This document shows, piece by piece, positions 11,622 to 18,395 of a DNA stretch of 34,052 nucleotides. The DNA comes from a virus. The translations under genes and the position numbers were made by a program. Location: positions 1-34,052 of the IMG/VR virus record IMGVR_UViG_3300020421_000078; one strand, given 5' to 3'. Position 1 is the stretch's first letter. Each line of letters starts with the position of its first letter. Below the pieces are notes generated by a model. It did no database searches. It was not told the DNA's origin and saw nothing but the letters and a program-made list of their open reading frames with translations.

Positions 11622-14621
11622 TTATTCTCCGATCTGTAGTGCTGTTAGGGTAACTGTGATTGTGGTTGCTGCGCCACTTCTATTAGTGACTGTTAGATAA
11701 ATGTTATTCGTTCTTGGATTATCGTTATTGAATCCCATGATGCCTGGGGATATTAGAATTGATTCTGCTCCAGATGTTCTCACTTCAGAAATAACACCGC
11801 TACCTGGAGTAGGATCTTCTCCCTCACTTCGTGTAGTATCAGCATCTCTTGACGCATCATCTACATACACTCGCACCCATGCCTCAGCATCAGTAGTAAT
11901 TTTAAATAACGAATAGGCTTTGTAACCTGTAATATTTAGTTCTCCTGATTGGTCAGCAGCAAGTGATGATGTAGTTCCAGAAAGATCTTGAATTGATGGA
12001 ACACTAGAACCACCAGTAGCAGTTAGAACTCCATTACCATCAATAGATAAACCAGATCCTACTTTAATACCACCAAGAGTTGTTGCGTCTGCTAATGGTA
12101 GTGTGTATCCTCCAGCATTAGCACTAAGAATACCATCACCATCAATGCTTAGATTAGCACCAACTTTAATACCACCTAAAGTTCCTGCTGCAGCAGTAGG
12201 TAATGTATATGCGGATGGAATAGATGGTTTGTTGAGAATCTGTGCTAATCCTGATGTAGCATCCCAATCAGATTGAACTGGTGCTGTGCTACTAATAGTA
12301 ATTCTTTCGTTGGGACCATCCCAAGAAACGTCAGTTCCACCACCACCAGTAATTTCAATATTATCTTGATTATTATTAGCATCTAATAAAGTGATAATAG
12401 CATTATTGCTATTAGTATTAGAACCTACTAAATCATAAGTGGTTCCGCCACCACCTCCACCACCTGCTTGTGCCGTAGCATTGATAGAATTGTTAATATC
12501 ATCATATGTAAATGTGATGTTTGTATGTGTGCCATTAGCAAACATCGCAGCGACAGCATCCTGTGCTTTCTCATCAGTATATAACTGAGTGGTAATATCA
12601 GGTGCTCTAAATGTAATTGTATTGGCGTCTGTATTCTCAACAGTCAGACCGTCAGCACCAGCAAATGTAATATCATCCAGAACACCCTCGCTATCAGTTA
12701 GTCTAAATGTAGCGTTAGAACCAGCACCTGGTTCAATAGAGATGCCATAGGTAGTATCAGTTACCGTATTTGTGAATGTAATTTCATTATTGGATTTAAT
12801 AATTGATAGTCCAGTACCCGCTGTAAGAATAATATCACTCGTTACACCCTGAGAATCAGCAAGTCTTACTATTTTTCTAGCATCATTATATGCTTGTGTT
12901 CCACCTGTTGTATAATCTAACGCATCAATAGAATATGTTAACTGTGTATTGGCAAGTAGTGTAGAAAAATCAGATGTTGTTGAACTATTAGTAGTGACGA
13001 CTCTTTGACTGGTCCAACTTACAGAGTTGGAATAGTACATCGCACCTGTTGCTTGAGAGTAAGCAAATGCACCCTCATTAATATTTGCTCCAGGAAAAAA
13101 TGCTATACTAGCATATACATTTTCAAATGGGTCACCCACAGGAGAAGCATCAACCCACTGTGATGTATTACCATCATCATAATACACTTTCATAGTGCCT
13201 TCATCAGACTTCCACCACATGTCTCCTGGCGATGGACTGGAGGGAGAAGCATCCGAAATGATAGCTTTAGCAGTAATAGTTGCTGGTGAGTTTACCCAAT
13301 CACTACCATTATATGATAGTACATCACCATTAGAAGGTGAACTAATTGTAACATCACCAAGAGTATTAATAGAACTCGAAGTCGTTAGATAACCAGCATC
13401 ATTTGTAAGATCACTTGCACTAACAGCAAGATCATAATAAGTAGATCCATCGTTAGTAAACTGCCACCTGTCAGTGGTTTCATTCCATTTAATACTTACA
13501 TCAGCATCAGTACCTCTTTCGTTTCTAACGAAAGCATCTAATCCACCAGATGCTTGATTTTCGTTGAGAACTATTTCGTTGTTAGTTACATTTAATGTTG
13601 AAACGTTATTAGTAGTAGTTGTTCCAAGAACATTTAAATTTCCACTTACATTAAGATCGGTTAAAGTAACTGTAGTTGTTGTACTAGCTCCTCTGGCAGT
13701 AACACTAGCAAGAGTATCAGTTTCAGTATAAGAAGTTAAGAAATTAGGAGTAATATTTACCCAATTAGTTCCGTTATATTGAAGGAACTGTCCACTAGCA
13801 GCACCAGAAATAGTAACATCACTAAGTCCATCAATAGACGAAGTTGAAAGATCTGTTAGGTATCCTGCTTGTCCATGATCTCCCCAGGTATAAGAAGTGT
13901 TCCAATTAGAAACATTAGTAAGAGTAATTCCAGCAGCAACTGAAGCAGTAAATACAGGATCAGTTTCATTATAAACTGTTAGATAACCTTGAGTAGCATG
14001 ATTACCCCACCCATACGCGGTGTCCCAGTTTGTTTTATTTTGTAGAGTAATACTACCAGCAGGAGAAGCGGCAAATACTGGGTCAGTTTCTGTATATGAT
14101 GTAAGATATCCCGCTTGACTATGGTCTCCCCATGAGTATGCTAGACTCCAATCAGTTCTATTTTCATTACTAATCTGATATGCTGGAGACGCTAAGAAAA
14201 TAGGGTCAGTTTCTGAGTATGATGTTAGATAACTAGAAAGATCTGGTGGAGTAAATGTAAACTCACCGTTTGCTTGGTTGTAAACAAGTGTTGAACTACC
14301 AACAGCAGTTAATACAATGCTTGGTTGCGCTGGAATAACAGGTTTATTTAAAATAGCAGCAACATCATTACCTGTAGCGTTCCAATCAGATTGAACTTGT
14401 GCCGCAGGAATAACTGGTTTGTTAGTTAGATCACTGTAACTACCGCTAAATGGTGCTGTCCAAGAAATGGATCCACCAGTGGTAGTCAACACTTGACCAG
14501 GAGAACCAACAGATCCAGCAATTTGTAAAGGCTTGCCTGCAGGAATATTAAGACCTTCTTTGAGTTCAATTGGAGAATTGTCTCCAAAATTGGCAATTTG
14601 GTTTGCAAGAATCTTTGACAT
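11622..14621 (-). CDS. Long tail fibre-like protein with WGDH repeats (999 aa)
   Basis: The N-terminus (MSKILANQIANFGDNSPIEL, LNIPAGKPLQIAGS) is a known style of cyanophage fibre attachment region. Residues 137-257 hold three tandem repeats of about 40 residues with ETDP.F.AS, NW..AY.WG[DN]H and GYLT. A LNVLGTTTTNN module leading into a RNERGTDADVSIKWNE strand follows, then a GDMWWKSDEGTMKVYY...QWVDASP module, TYGISIEPG/LTAGTGL strands, and paired GGIKVGANLSIDGDG / GGIKVGSGLSIDGNG units. The last 110 residues match the C-terminal domain of the 323-residue protein (DPTPGSGVISE). It is the first gene after the terminator and structured-RNA region and has its own late promoter motif, so it heads the tail/adhesion transcription unit. 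The specific receptor is unknown. Confidence 0.85.
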   Translation of the reverse strand: MSKILANQIANFGDNSPIELKEGLNIPAGKPLQIAGSVGSPGQVLTTTGGSISWTAPFSGSYSDLTNKPVIPAAQVQSDWNATGNDVAAILNKPVIPAQPSIVLTAVGSSTLVYNQANGEFTFTPPDLSSYLTSYSETDPIFLASPAYQISNENRTDWSLAYSWGDHSQAGYLTSYTETDPVFAASPAGSITLQNKTNWDTAYGWGNHATQGYLTVYNETDPVFTASVAAGITLTNVSNWNTSYTWGDHGQAGYLTDLSTSSIDGLSDVTISGAASGQFLQYNGTNWVNITPNFLTSYTETDTLASVTARGASTTTTVTLTDLNVSGNLNVLGTTTTNNVSTLNVTNNEIVLNENQASGGLDAFVRNERGTDADVSIKWNETTDRWQFTNDGSTYYDLAVSASDLTNDAGYLTTSSSINTLGDVTISSPSNGDVLSYNGSDWVNSPATITAKAIISDASPSSPSPGDMWWKSDEGTMKVYYDDGNTSQWVDASPVGDPFENVYASIAFFPGANINEGAFAYSQATGAMYYSNSVSWTSQRVVTTNSSTTSDFSTLLANTQLTYSIDALDYTTGGTQAYNDARKIVRLADSQGVTSDIILTAGTGLSIIKSNNEITFTNTVTDTTYGISIEPGAGSNATFRLTDSEGVLDDITFAGADGLTVENTDANTITFRAPDITTQLYTDEKAQDAVAAMFANGTHTNITFTYDDINNSINATAQAGGGGGGGTTYDLVGSNTNSNNAIITLLDANNNQDNIEITGGGGTDVSWDGPNERITISSTAPVQSDWDATSGLAQILNKPSIPSAYTLPTAAAGTLGGIKVGANLSIDGDGILSANAGGYTLPLADATTLGGIKVGSGLSIDGNGVLTATGGSSVPSIQDLSGTTSSLAADQSGELNITGYKAYSLFKITTDAEAWVRVYVDDASRDADTTRSEGEDPTPGSGVISEVRTSGAESILISPGIMGFNNDNPRTNNIYLTVTNRSGAATTITVTLTALQIGE

Positions 14622-14709: not shown

Positions 14710-14921
14710 GGACACATGCACGCCACTTGTTTGTTTCAGTTGTAAACAAGAACCAACCACACGGAAGGGGTTTGGCACCACCACTTACTCTTTAACTGGA
14801 AGTAAGAAACCAGGCGGGAGAGAGATCCCATCCGCACCACCAGTTCTTAAGGAAAAACTGGAAACCCGAGGGGTCGTGAAACCCATCCCGACCAGGGCAC
14901 TTTTAGAGTCTTTCCGAGACT
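14710..14921 (-). ncRNA. Candidate structured RNA: three tandem hairpin modules
   Basis: This is a stretch of about 210 bases with no gene and visibly higher G+C than its surroundings. Read on the plus strand, three tandem modules of 57-59 bases start at 14718, 14775 and 14834 with GCACGCCA, GCACCACCA and GCACCACCA. Each is followed at once by a hairpin: CTTGTTT/AAACAAG (14726-14750), CTTAC/GTAAG (14784-14806) and CCAGTT/AACTGG (14840-14861). After each hairpin comes GAACC, GAAACC or GGAAACCC; modules two and three also share CCCATCC near the end. The arms differ in sequence but stay complementary, as covariation for a conserved structure would give. Further stems are GGTCG/CGACC (14872-14893) and AGTCT/AGACT (14907-14921). 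The minus-strand terminator directly after module one implies a minus-strand RNA: either the long 3' end of the talC operon transcript or a processed small RNA. It matches no RNA family I can name. Confidence 0.55.
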
Positions 14922-15219
14922 AGGTGAAGCTGATGGTATCATCACTAGAGTTTCCAATAGTAACTCCACCAAAATCAATAACATTATCTAGACGATCTAG
15001 ATCACCACCAGGACGTAGGTAATCAGATGTTAAATTGAAACTGTAGTTTGAATTGTAAGCAAACTTAGATGAATCGTTTACTTTTTTATTCAAATTACTG
15101 ACTGCTTGATACTGAGTGAACAGTTCAGACAGACAATCTTCGTCGCCCTCAGCAAGAGCGTTAATCAGTGCTTGACGTAGTGCTTCTTCAGCAGCTTGGA
15201 CTTGTGATCTTACGCTCAT
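14920..15219 (-). CDS. Conserved-type hypothetical protein, 99 aa
   Basis: I choose the ATG at 15219 (MSVRSQVQAAEEALRQ) because GAGG lies 7 bases upstream and the longer frame would run back into the previous gene. The N-terminal half is a strongly predicted helix with an acidic face (QAAEEALRQALINALAEGDED, LSELFTQYQAV), then a second helix. The C-terminal half is polar and beta-like and ends SSDDTISFT. No catalytic motif, signal or membrane segment is visible. It is the last gene of the talC operon. Its TAG stop lies in the first stem of the structured 3' region. Function unknown; helical N-terminus plus polar tail would suit a small virion or scaffold-like protein, but this is a guess. Confidence 0.75.
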   Translation of the reverse strand: MSVRSQVQAAEEALRQALINALAEGDEDCLSELFTQYQAVSNLNKKVNDSSKFAYNSNYSFNLTSDYLRPGGDLDRLDNVIDFGGVTIGNSSDDTISFT

Positions 15220-15226
15220 AATAACC

Positions 15227-15463
15227 TCAGTTGTATTTACGATAGGCACCAACCTCAGGGTCAGGGTCTAACCATTTGGTATACTCTGGATCCTCAAGGC
15301 AGGTGTCTAGTTGCATTTGGTTGTCAAGTAGGTACATGTCAAAGTACCGTTTTTTCCACTCATGAAACTTTTGAATACGATAGTCTGGCATACCGTTGGT
15401 TTCTAGGGTGCCGCACTGTACGAAACGGTACGGTCCTTGATCAAAAATAACAGTGGGTTTCAT
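15227..15463 (-). CDS. Hypothetical protein, 78 aa
   Basis: I place the start at 15463 (MKPTVIFDQGPYRF), where the ATG overlaps the stop of the permease gene as ATGA; a longer frame is open but would lie entirely within the permease gene. The protein is rich in aromatic and charged residues (HEWKKRYFDMYLLDN, YTKWLDPDPEV) and has two cysteines. I do not recognise it. It is translationally coupled to the DUF401 permease upstream and lies 7 bases before the 99-residue gene. It is too short for an enzyme of known type, and I see no toxin signature even though an antitoxin-like gene is nearby. Confidence 0.65.
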   Translation of the reverse strand: MKPTVIFDQGPYRFVQCGTLETNGMPDYRIQKFHEWKKRYFDMYLLDNQMQLDTCLEDPEYTKWLDPDPEVGAYRKYN

Positions 15464-16500
15464 AGGATGAAGGTAGTGATTGCCGCGTACCCGATTAGTA
15501 TAGCACATAATCGGGATAAGACAACGTAGTATTTCCGAATTGGTGTACCGAAATACTGTTGTCCAATCATGAGACACTTGTGGGCAGGTGAGATGAGGTA
15601 TCCAGAATACTCAGTACAAAGGAACCACACCAGATAGTTAGGTCCAAAGATTGCTACCAAAGCAGAGGTCATACCAGCATACTTGCCAGATGAACCCATG
15701 ATGTAAGCAGCAACCATAGCGACCAGAGAGGCAGGGATGAGCATCTCAGGCGTTGCTGCCTTGAGATAGTCCATGACTGGACCCTTGATCAATCCTACCA
15801 CACCACCAAGGGCAAGGACAAGGGTAGCAATGATAGCAAACTTGCCATCTAACCACCTGCCCCACTTCCAGTCCTTGTATACAATCGAGTAATAGATTGA
15901 CATAGCAAGGAACCAAGGGAAGAAGAATGGTGCTCCTGCCTTACCTGTATTCAATAGAAGAATAACAGTAGCAATCAGAGGTGCCCAACCAGTAAGAGCA
16001 CGACGCCAGTTAAAGTCTCGTACATATTCTAGGTTAGGAACAACAGACGAAGGTGGAACCTTGGTAAAGATATACCACCATGTGTATGCCAAGGTGATAG
16101 CAAGAGGAATAATAGTATATCCAAGGAATGTTGAATAAGAAACACCCATCACTGCCATAGGCAGGACAACTGTCTTCTCCAACGGCGACCACCAATAGTA
16201 ATGGTGGACTGATAGGTAATCAATCACACCAAAAGCAGAACGTTTCTCCTTATCTTGTGGTGCTATGGCATCCAGGAGTGGTGCTGAGAGAGCAACACGA
16301 CCAGGGATAGGTAGAATACCACCCAATAGTGAGGTGATGATAACAAGGATACGATGGTCCTTGATATATTTCTTTGCTAAAGAATAAACATCTTCCAGAG
16401 CACTATGTTCACGGATGAAACCACCCAAGATCATAATGCCAAAGATGTACCCCATGTAGAGTTCATTCTTGGCAATAGATTCTAGTGTTTTAACTAACAT
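15460..16500 (-). CDS. DUF401-family integral membrane permease
   Basis: 346 residues with about nine to ten hydrophobic membrane segments. The match to DUF401 (PF04165) rests on the order of conserved stretches: ILGGFIREHSALEDV in the first segments, the loop GGILPIPGRVALSAP (residues about 60-74), a Tyr/Trp-rich stretch HHYYWWSPLE where the family has its RHIWEYFWP motif, and near the C-terminus GYLISPAHKCLMIGQQYFG matching SPVHLCLVLT.EYF. DUF401 proteins are bacterial and archaeal permease-like proteins of unknown substrate. A full-length copy in a phage is unusual; it would insert into the host inner membrane during infection. The start overlaps the antitoxin-like gene as TAATG, so it is co-translated with the talC, glutaredoxin and antitoxin genes. 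The substrate cannot be deduced here. Confidence 0.75.
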   Translation of the reverse strand: MLVKTLESIAKNELYMGYIFGIMILGGFIREHSALEDVYSLAKKYIKDHRILVIITSLLGGILPIPGRVALSAPLLDAIAPQDKEKRSAFGVIDYLSVHHYYWWSPLEKTVVLPMAVMGVSYSTFLGYTIIPLAITLAYTWWYIFTKVPPSSVVPNLEYVRDFNWRRALTGWAPLIATVILLLNTGKAGAPFFFPWFLAMSIYYSIVYKDWKWGRWLDGKFAIIATLVLALGGVVGLIKGPVMDYLKAATPEMLIPASLVAMVAAYIMGSSGKYAGMTSALVAIFGPNYLVWFLCTEYSGYLISPAHKCLMIGQQYFGTPIRKYYVVLSRLCAILIGYAAITTFIL

Positions 16501-16706
16501 TACGATGCCTCTTCATGATCAGAATACATTTGACTCAACTCATCAACGTCAGAAACAGCAGTAGCTGCTGCTTCATACTCACCAGCAGGAACAGCAACTA
16601 CTGCCCTGCCATCTGGTTGGCGAATCAAGAACGATTCACCTGCTTCAATACGATCCATATACGAATCGAAGTCTTTTTCAAACTCTGCTACAGTAAGTTC
16701 AGTCAT
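16500..16706 (-). CDS. Phd/YefM-type antitoxin-like protein, 68 aa
   Basis: The sequence MTELTVAEFEKDFDSYMDRIEAGESF followed by LIRQPDGRAVVAVPAGEYE follows the Phd/YefM fold: an N-terminal strand and helix, a .vE.GE..li.. hairpin and the strand leading to P..EYE. In chromosomal and plasmid toxin-antitoxin pairs this domain binds operator DNA, and a C-terminal tail neutralises a Doc or RelE-type toxin. Here the tail is short and acidic (SQMYSDHEEAS) and no toxin gene is next to it: the downstream gene is a permease and the upstream one a glutaredoxin. It may neutralise a host toxin or act as a small DNA-binding regulator; both are inferences. The start overlaps the glutaredoxin stop. Confidence 0.75.
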   Translation of the reverse strand: MTELTVAEFEKDFDSYMDRIEAGESFLIRQPDGRAVVAVPAGEYEAAATAVSDVDELSQMYSDHEEAS

Positions 16707-16945
16707 ACCCTACAACAAATATTTTTATCTCGCATGTATTCTATGGATTCTCTACATCCCCCGATATGTTCATCGTTGAATGTAATCTGTGGGAAGGTAG
16801 AATCTTTCCCAAATTTTAAATAAAATTCTTCTTTAGTAAAGTCCCTGTCTAGTTCATAAACAACATGTTTTACTTCTTCAAGTTCAACAATTGCTTTAAA
16901 TTTTTCACAGTAGACACACCCAGGTTTTGAAAAAATTGTAAACAT
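16703..16945 (-). CDS. nrdC: Glutaredoxin
   Basis: An 80-residue glutaredoxin/thioredoxin fold protein with the redox motif KPGCVYCEKF (Cys10 and Cys13), the conserved TFPQITF segment with its cis-proline, and a GG pair before the last helix (HIGGC). It would reduce the C-terminal disulfide of phage ribonucleotide reductase NrdA (20784-23105) or other targets, as T4 NrdC does. The start overlaps the talC stop as TAATG. A third and fourth cysteine close to the C-terminus (ICC) are less usual. The gene symbol is by analogy with T4-like phages. Confidence 0.88.
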   Translation of the reverse strand: MFTIFSKPGCVYCEKFKAIVELEEVKHVVYELDRDFTKEEFYLKFGKDSTFPQITFNDEHIGGCRESIEYMRDKNICCRV

Positions 16946-17586
16946 TAGATTTGTTTGAAGTCGTTGTCAAAAATTGCTAGACCAGCATCGGTTAGAACGT
17001 GATTATACATCTTATCAAATACCGCAGTTGGTAGAGTAACCACATCAGCGCCATACATTAAGCATCGCGATACATGATGTACATCTCGAAGACTTGCAGC
17101 AAGAACTTTAGTTTCTACTCTTTGAGCAGCATACAGACCACCAATAGCACGTACCAGTTCCACACCACTGAGACTATTATCATTCATCCTACCCACGAAT
17201 GGGGAAATGTATGTGGCACCTGCCAATGCGGTCATAACTGCTTGAGCAGCAGAGAAACAAAGAGTAACGTTAGTCTTTATACCTTGCTCAGAGAGAATCT
17301 TACAAGCAATAAGACCTTCTTTAGTCAAAGGCAGTTTGATGGTAACTTCCGAACCAATAGCAATGTATTGCTGTGCATTGGTAATCATTTCATCAGCATT
17401 TTTTCCATCAACTTCTGCTGAAATACTTTCAAAAGAAAATTCTCTTGAAAGCATACGGATGAAATCAAAGTAGTCTACGCCAGATTTACGAATTAGTGTG
17501 GGATTAGTAGTAATACCAGAGACAAGACCCGTCGCATAACGATCAGCAATCTCTGTATAATTAGCAGTGTCTAGAAAAATTTGCAT
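16945..17586 (-). CDS. talC: Transaldolase (TalC/fructose-6-phosphate aldolase-like)
   Basis: 213 residues, the short transaldolase/FSA class usual for cyanophages. Visible motifs are FLDTAN (with Asp6), GITTNPTLI (residues 24-32), the Schiff-base lysine Lys84 in VTIKLP, TLCFSAAQA and ISPFVGRMND. The enzyme moves dihydroxyacetone units between sugar phosphates. In cyanophage-infected cells it is thought to favour the pentose phosphate pathway, supplying NADPH and ribose for nucleotides, which fits the nrdA, nrdB and glutaredoxin genes nearby. It begins a five-gene coupled set (talC, glutaredoxin, antitoxin, permease, 78-residue gene). The start codon has no recognisable Shine-Dalgarno and lies 29 bases from the 3' end of tRNA-Pro, so it may depend on tRNA processing. 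Confidence 0.93.
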   Translation of the reverse strand: MQIFLDTANYTEIADRYATGLVSGITTNPTLIRKSGVDYFDFIRMLSREFSFESISAEVDGKNADEMITNAQQYIAIGSEVTIKLPLTKEGLIACKILSEQGIKTNVTLCFSAAQAVMTALAGATYISPFVGRMNDNSLSGVELVRAIGGLYAAQRVETKVLAASLRDVHHVSRCLMYGADVVTLPTAVFDKMYNHVLTDAGLAIFDNDFKQI

Positions 17587-17615
17587 GTTAGTAAAAGTGT
17601 TGGTGAGTTACCAAA

Positions 17616-17689
17616 TCGGGGTGATAGGATTTGAACCTACGGCATCCGCCTCCCAAAGACGGCGCTCTGCCAAGCTGAGCTACACCCCG
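17616..17689 (-). tRNA. tRNA-Pro (UGG)
   Basis: A full cloverleaf reads from the minus strand: acceptor CGGGGTG/CACCCCG, D-arm GCTC...GAGC, anticodon stem CCGTC/GGCGG with loop TTTGGGA (anticodon TGG) and T-arm GTAGG-TTCAAAT-CCTAT. Discriminator A; CCA is not encoded. It reads CCA codons. Its 5' end overlaps the end of the 68-residue gene by 10 bases, so maturation of the tRNA cuts that message. Confidence 0.95.
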
Positions 17690-17886
17690 ATACGTTGCTC
17701 AACGCTTACGCATTGTTCTTGAAGATTATACTTCAATTTATAGTTGTTTGTCAAGACATAGTATCCATCTATGTCAGAACCATTATCGGTCCATCCATAC
17801 GCTATCACATGTTCACAAATGCCATCAATAGTAAAACATTTTTTTGTGTGTAGATAACTTTCATAACGGTTGTCTAAATCAATCAT
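17680..17886 (-). CDS. Hypothetical protein, 68 aa, overlapping tRNA-Pro
   Basis: A small protein ([18 protein letters not shown]...DGYYVLTNN) with the look of a compact beta-rich domain; I do not recognise it. The start overlaps the stop of the zinc-ribbon gene as ATGA, which argues that it is a real coupled gene. Its last codons run into the 5' end of tRNA-Pro, so RNase P cleavage of the transcript would remove its stop codon. Function unknown. Confidence 0.6.
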   Translation of the reverse strand: MIDLDNRYESYLHTKKCFTIDGICEHVIAYGWTDNGSDIDGYYVLTNNYKLKYNLQEQCVSVEQRIGV

Positions 17887-18131
17887 CGTTCCTCATAGTT
17901 TAATCGACGTACTTTACGTTTGCGTCGTTCCTCCTGATATTTTAGGTCATCAGACGTAAGAATTCCGTTATATTTAATATTTTTTTCATGATTGATTAAC
18001 ACTACTTGCCCTAAATCAATAGCACCAATAGTATCGTCAACAACTCTCATCTGATTAGGACATCCACAGAACTGAACTTTGCTAGTGCTTGTCAGTTCTT
18101 TGCGACATACCTTGCATCTTGCTGTTAACAT
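17883..18131 (-). CDS. Small zinc-ribbon-like protein, 82 aa
   Basis: The N-terminal part has a metal-binding cysteine pattern: Cys6 and Cys9 ([10 protein letters not shown]), then Cys22 and Cys24 (FCGCP). The middle ([11 protein letters not shown]) is followed by a strongly basic tail ([10 protein letters not shown]) that could bind nucleic acid. Proteins of this build are common in marine T4-like phages but have no assigned function that I know of. The gene follows tRNA-Val after 28 bases and is coupled to the next gene by ATGA. A GAGG lies rather far (about 16 bases) upstream. Confidence 0.75.
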
Positions 18132-18159
18132 TTTTAAGCATTTAACCTCTTTGAGGGAA

Positions 18160-18231
18160 TGGGTGAAGAGGGGATCGAACCCCCGACCGCCTCCGTGTAA
18201 AGGAGATGCTCTACCGCTGAGCTATTCACCC
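18160..18231 (-). tRNA. tRNA-Val (UAC)
   Basis: The cloverleaf has acceptor GGGTGAA/TTCACCC, D-arm GCTC...GAGC, anticodon stem TCTCC/GGAGG with loop TTTACAC (anticodon TAC) and T-arm GGGGG-TTCGATC-CCCTC. Discriminator A, no encoded CCA. It reads GUA codons. Third tRNA in the transcribed order Arg-Leu-Val. Confidence 0.95.
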
Positions 18232-18234
18232 GAG

Positions 18235-18317
18235 TGTCGGCAAGAGGACTTGAACCTCCACGTCATAAAGACACTAGAACCTAAACCTAGCGCGTCTACC
18301 AATTCCGCCATGCCGAC
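18235..18317 (-). tRNA. tRNA-Leu (UAG)
   Basis: A class II tRNA with a long variable arm. It has acceptor GTCGGCA/TGCCGAC, anticodon stem CTAGG/TCTAG with loop TTTAGGT (anticodon TAG) and T-arm GGAGG-TTCAAGT-CCTCT. Discriminator A, no encoded CCA. It reads CUA, a codon often rare in higher-GC marine Synechococcus hosts (family knowledge, not seen here). Three bases separate it from tRNA-Val. Confidence 0.95.
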
Positions 18318-18321
18318 AAGG

Positions 18322-18395
<74 letters not shown>

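Follow-up and report, generated by a model that had tools for sequence, protein, structure and literature searches.

Cyanophage auxiliary genes known so far mostly concern photosynthesis, carbon flow, nucleotides, and phosphate sensing. Among membrane transport proteins, the DASS (SLC13) carriers, which move di/tricarboxylates or sulfate in a Na+-coupled or exchange mode, are built such that two hairpins and two broken helices meet at the substrate; for the DUF401 family, we know of no substrate. The invariants that cellular DUF401 proteins (PF04165/TIGR00529, AF0261-like) have in common with the phage protein analyzed here are R50, P66, S72-A-P74, P106, G269, and the SPxHxC signature, with Y316 being nearly invariant.

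The window, that is, the whole stretch of DNA that was analyzed (34,052 nt; IMG/VR record IMGVR_UViG_3300020421_000078), is a 34-kb piece of a T4-like cyanomyovirus, whose closest phage records are ACG-2014i, Sf-CH1b, S-CAM4, and ACG-2014j. According to our main reading, to which we assign a probability of roughly 0.55, its DUF401 gene encodes an IT/DASS-like elevator secondary transporter with an anionic substrate, which travels as mobile cargo and for which TalC is probably only a neighbor.

The DUF401 gene and its neighbors in the window

The DUF401 gene belongs to the tightly coupled string tRNAs-TalC-Grx-Phd-DUF401-phrog_481 (Table 1). The overlaps are 1 nt between TalC and Grx, 4 nt between Grx and Phd, 1 nt between Phd and DUF401, and 4 nt (ATGA) between DUF401 and the phrog_481 gene, and both Pfam and PHROGs confirm the TalC, glutaredoxin, and Phd neighbors. 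The DUF401 frame is intact, with an ATG start and an AGAGG-like ribosome-binding site closely upstream. Its product matches PF04165 above the gathering score of 24 (37.6 bits, E = 2.2e-9), covering profile positions 62 to 378 of 393, and the copies of S-H25 and metaG-MbCM1 reach 44 bits. The match to TIGR00529 (AF0261 family membrane protein) is weak and stays below the threshold, at 51 bits against a cutoff of 378, while the unnamed PHROG family phrog_14035 matches the protein end to end. In an alignment with 16 cellular DUF401 sequences, the family signatures P-x5-SAP and SPxHxC are kept.

The first ca. 55 residues of cellular DUF401 proteins, which comprise two predicted transmembrane helices, are missing in the window protein and in all 205 phage copies. 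These N-terminal helices are a usual feature of the whole-length domain but are not demanded by the cutoff, and by its sequence the window protein is best described as a shortened DUF401 variant, not a non-member. We rejected the possibility that the missing N terminus is encoded upstream, as the frame preceding DUF401 belongs to Phd, whose product is hydrophilic, and the upstream sequence varies between contexts. The original prediction had described a full-length DUF401 protein tightly coupled with talC, glutaredoxin, and an antitoxin-like gene. The family assignment was borne out by the HMM search and the coupling by junctions that overlap by 1 or 4 nt, whereas "full-length" holds in relation to the other phage copies but not to the cellular family.

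Table 1 Features of the window around and within the DUF401 gene
Feature	Position	Strand	Evidence
DUF401 permease gene, phage-type short form, 346 aa	15460..16500	−	PF04165, 37.6 bits; phrog_14035, 642 bits; AF2 IT/DASS fold (predicted)
Hairpin-1 motif PIPGRVALSAP, residues 64-74	16279..16311	−	P66, S72, P74 common to cellular DUF401
Helix break 1, HHYYWWSPLEKT, residues 99-110	16171..16206	−	P106 common to cellular DUF401
Hairpin-2 motif MGSSGKYAGMT, residues 268-278	15667..15699	−	G269 common to cellular DUF401
Helix break 2, family signature SPAHKC, residues 304-309	15574..15591	−	SPxHxC invariant in phage and cellular proteins
Phd/YefM-like antitoxin gene	16500..16706	−	PF02604, 30.3 bits; phrog_375
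Glutaredoxin gene	16703..16945	−	PF00462
TalC transaldolase gene	16945..17586	−	PF00923, 176 bits; phrog_440
Four tRNA genes (Pro, Val, Leu, Arg) enclosing two small genes; upstream of talC	17615..18395	−	ARAGORN, Rfam
phrog_481 small protein; ATGA overlap with DUF401 stop	15227..15463	−	phrog_481, E = 3.7e-40; junction sequence
phrog_604 small protein; start placed at MSVRSQ	14920..15219	−	PHROGs

Some further features of the region were noted. The two small genes among the four tRNA genes correspond to phrog_6312 and phrog_8074, and a similar layout of tRNAs and small genes recurs in Sf-CH1b and S-WAM2. A wcaG RNA motif (RF01761; 89.6 bits, cutoff 42) lies at positions 14770 to 14869 on the minus strand, directly upstream of a large tail-fibre-like gene (11622 to 14621). 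No toxin gene adjoins Phd, whose neighbors are Grx and DUF401, and no toxin family was matched in Pfam or PHROGs; having no adjacent toxin, Phd was not assigned to a type II toxin-antitoxin system. Phd-like antitoxins occur in 49 phage records, nearly all of cyanophages, and usually adjoin talC or glutaredoxin.

Predicted fold and basic residues fixed in phage copies

The AF2 model of the window protein, built from 43 sequences, has a pLDDT of 76.5 and a pTM of 0.77, with low confidence (54 to 72) at residues 1 to 40 and 150 to 240; a cellular DUF401 protein (L096) gave no usable AF2 model (pLDDT 39). The top IT-fold matches in Foldseek were MleN, AtDiT1, TRAP SiaQM, and Pho90, with probabilities of 0.96 to 1.00 and E-values of only 0.004 to 0.1. 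When compared by VIA-align, the plant dicarboxylate carrier AtDiT1 scored highest (Z = 21.8, with 340 of 346 residues aligned), followed by LaINDY and NaDC1 (Z = 21.4 each), Pho90 (21.2), MleN (17.6), and TRAP SiaQM (ca. 14), and the next clearly different group, CNT, scored 8.8. With Z scores of 20 to 22 to DASS members over 332 to 344 residues, the protein is predicted to have an IT-superfamily, elevator-type fold over its whole length, in line with the multi-span permease that had originally been proposed. A sequence-profile search of solved structures gave no credible match and reached no solved transporter; the fold assignment thus depends on the AF2 model.

In the model, helices 49-62 and 65-79 make up hairpin 1, and hairpin 2 extends from 251-268 to 277-285; the two broken helices are 84-98/109-118 and 287-302/305-310. 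The aligned part of the DASS and Pho90 chains starts past their first helices, in accordance with the N terminus missing in the sequence.

Four basic residues, R68, K109, K273, and K308, are present in 205/205 phage copies and in 0/16 cellular homologues, the latter being a narrow set of 15 Atribacterota sequences and one Peptoclostridium sequence. At the position of R68, all 16 cellular proteins have G; K109 corresponds to P, T, or S and K273 to A, T, G, or S, while K308 takes the place of a fixed cellular L within the helix-break signature. Together with the conserved residues, these four fall on the two hairpins and the two helix breaks of the model. The hairpin tips read P-I-P-G-R and G-S-S-G-K and contain no SNT, the motif that DASS carriers have at both tips. 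Since the phage-fixed basic residues lie at predicted substrate-site elements, we infer that the phage DUF401 protein is a secondary transporter whose solute is an anion.

Distribution, selection, and genomic context

DUF401 is carried by nine phage records, with S-CAM4, ACG-2014j, S-H25, and metaG-MbCM1 as the four named phages, whose copies were deposited as hypothetical proteins, one of them named after Glov_0511. In IMG/VR, 249 to 275 stretches, depending on the query, encode relatives. We judged 205 copies, some of which are one contig fetched twice, and counted 136 distinct stretches. All 205 copies are open frames of 340 to 348 aa, save one ended by the contig edge, and share 68% identity or more with the window protein. 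With dN/dS values of ca. 0.08 to 0.10 (Nei-Gojobori, usable pairs), the gene is under strong purifying selection and not decaying. It is thus widespread, but the possibility, raised with the original prediction, of a common neutral cyanophage gene fails on this selection.

A search of 84,980 genomes with two peptide patterns yielded no close relative, and no long-form, bacterial-type DUF401 was found among viral contigs. The plasmid search returned two distant DUF401 copies only; that of Cetobacterium plasmid p5 (L094:5881-6930) is a bacterial DUF401 gene with its N terminus cut, directly behind a Tn3 transposase. A search of the open literature found no paper discussing this DUF401 gene in cyanophages, in keeping with the original view that it stands outside their usual auxiliary genes; "DUF401" in a Bacillus anthracis paper proved to be DUF4015. 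In a viral structure library, there was one strong match (E = 3.3e-13), the DUF401 family protein A0A1L7N0V7 of Ralstonia jumbo phage RP12, a member of Chimalliviridae; its phage family and host differ from those of the window virus. The fold match extends over the whole length with 26% identity, and the equal length of the two proteins (346 aa) suggests that RP12 has the same short form.

The surroundings of the gene were surveyed in 66 distinct loci, each with at least 2.5 kb of upstream and 1.5 kb of downstream flank. The gene directly upstream of DUF401 is Phd in 21 loci, a phrog_274 gene in 18, and a MazG-context gene in 13, the remainder being 2OG oxygenases, small membrane proteins, and others. 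CpeT and a phage outer-membrane protein are also found next to DUF401 copies, as are MazG, a phrog_274 gene, and 2OG oxygenases. In a tree of the 66 proteins, the class of neighbor switches 14 times or more. talC was found within 4 kb in at least 29 loci, a lower bound given that some flanks are short, and was not found within that distance in 37. In S-H25 and metaG-MbCM1, DUF401 is located elsewhere and talC is not adjacent.

Of the ACG-2014j isolates, Syn7803US103 has DUF401 where Syn7803US23 has an unrelated 135-aa membrane protein in the same slot, and the swap is exact, with flanks that are 96% identical and end at the gene edges. This small protein belongs to phrog_1248 (L252:2141-2548, NC_062735.1) and is also present in ACG-2014i and ACG-2014h. 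The phrog_1248 protein and DUF401 look interchangeable at this slot. Other genes hold the talC-phd site in ACG-2014i, ACG-2014h, Sf-CH1b, S-WAM2, and one ACG-2014j isolate. In the window, DUF401 occupies a variable cargo site that is bordered by phd and the phrog_481 gene and lies near the tRNAs. talC itself occupies variable positions, often near tRNAs, as in the window (Sullivan et al. 2010, PMC3037559).

Two further arrangements were observed. In one (L219:7867-11262; also L152 and L217), TalC is followed by a phage beta-barrel protein of the outer membrane (PF24653), then by a small membrane protein, DUF401, and Grx, so that proteins of the outer and the inner membrane are encoded next to each other. 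In the other (L175:9471-11442; also L155), DUF401 has a 2OG-Fe(II) oxygenase (PF13759) on one side and a CpeT-like gene (PF06206) on the other. Cellular neighborhoods were also considered as a substrate clue and discarded: 20 Atribacterota loci, whose neighbors were named by reading their sequences rather than by searches, had either housekeeping genes (rsmG, parAB, HD, threonine synthase) or FecCD-like ABC genes, and nothing usable emerged.

Candidate roles and comparison with known carriers

The window gene is a real, intact, selected, phage-specific DUF401 variant with a predicted transporter fold. The original prediction had taken its coupling with TalC as a hint that a metabolite or carbon compound is moved during infection. 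As a carbon-metabolism partner of TalC, the permease would move a pentose-phosphate-linked metabolite or organic acid to sustain the TalC-driven pathway, with the operon as a functional unit. The translational coupling in the window, the loci with talC nearby, including the one with the outer-membrane protein, and the dicarboxylate carriers among the fold relatives all speak for such a partnership. We nevertheless consider it unlikely and rejected it as the main reading after the survey, given the loci without nearby talC, the repeated neighbor changes, the ACG-2014j swap, and the other genes found at the talC-phd site; moreover, TalC matches 460 cyanophage-named phage records and DUF401 only nine. 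As DUF401 is mobile cargo in a variable slot, TalC is probably its neighbor and not its partner, and the link incidental.

Another role would be that of a membrane-modifying or exclusion protein, in which the repurposed fold has ceased to transport and serves to block or alter host import or secondary infection. It would fit the absence of two N-terminal helices from every phage copy and the one-for-one replacement by a small membrane protein in ACG-2014j. If transport had been given up, the hairpins, broken helices, and substrate-site residues should have been lost; the model retains both hairpins and both broken helices, and few parts of DUF401 are as strongly conserved as its putative substrate-site residues, which makes this role improbable. 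There is likewise only a small chance that the protein exports an inhibitory anion made in infection or works as an MleN-like Na+/H+-anion antiporter instead of an importer. MleN, an antiporter-family protein, is the top Foldseek row, but same-fold carriers known as importers score higher in VIA-align, and the fold cannot give direction.

In the secondary transporter reading that we favor, the protein would sit in the host inner membrane during infection and work by an elevator mechanism, with R68, K109, K273, and K308 at the hairpins and helix breaks binding the anionic substrate, which would most likely be a di- or tricarboxylate, phosphate, or a small metabolite that is phosphorylated. With its first two helices, the protein may have shed nothing but scaffold and kept the core needed for transport, although their loss could also leave it inactive or partner-dependent. 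Uptake feeding phage synthesis would be the direction, a weaker suggestion than the others. If this holds, a complete phage-made secondary carrier would let infection alter the solutes crossing the host membrane. The phage proteins single out four residues, and the ACG-2014j isolates are a natural presence/absence pair. More tentatively, and at somewhat below even odds, there could be a phage-specific short DUF401 subfamily, present in cyanophages and in nucleus-forming jumbo phages, that works as an elevator transporter on its own and has been remodeled to take a strongly anionic metabolite. It would be a transport-type auxiliary gene independent of host carriers, passed from one phage genome to another as a cassette of one gene.

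Compared with known systems, the cyanophage proteins of S-CAM4, ACG-2014j, S-H25, and metaG-MbCM1 (phrog_14035) are the same gene, at 68 to 92% identity. Cellular DUF401 proteins are ca. 19 to 24% identical to the window protein, which differs from them in being without their first residues and in having the four fixed basic ones. To the DASS/SLC13 carriers AtDiT1, LaINDY, and NaDC1 and to Pho90, it shows 8 to 11% identity and no sequence-profile match; it is predicted to resemble them in fold over its whole length, with two hairpins and two broken helices, and it is without their N-terminal scaffold helices.
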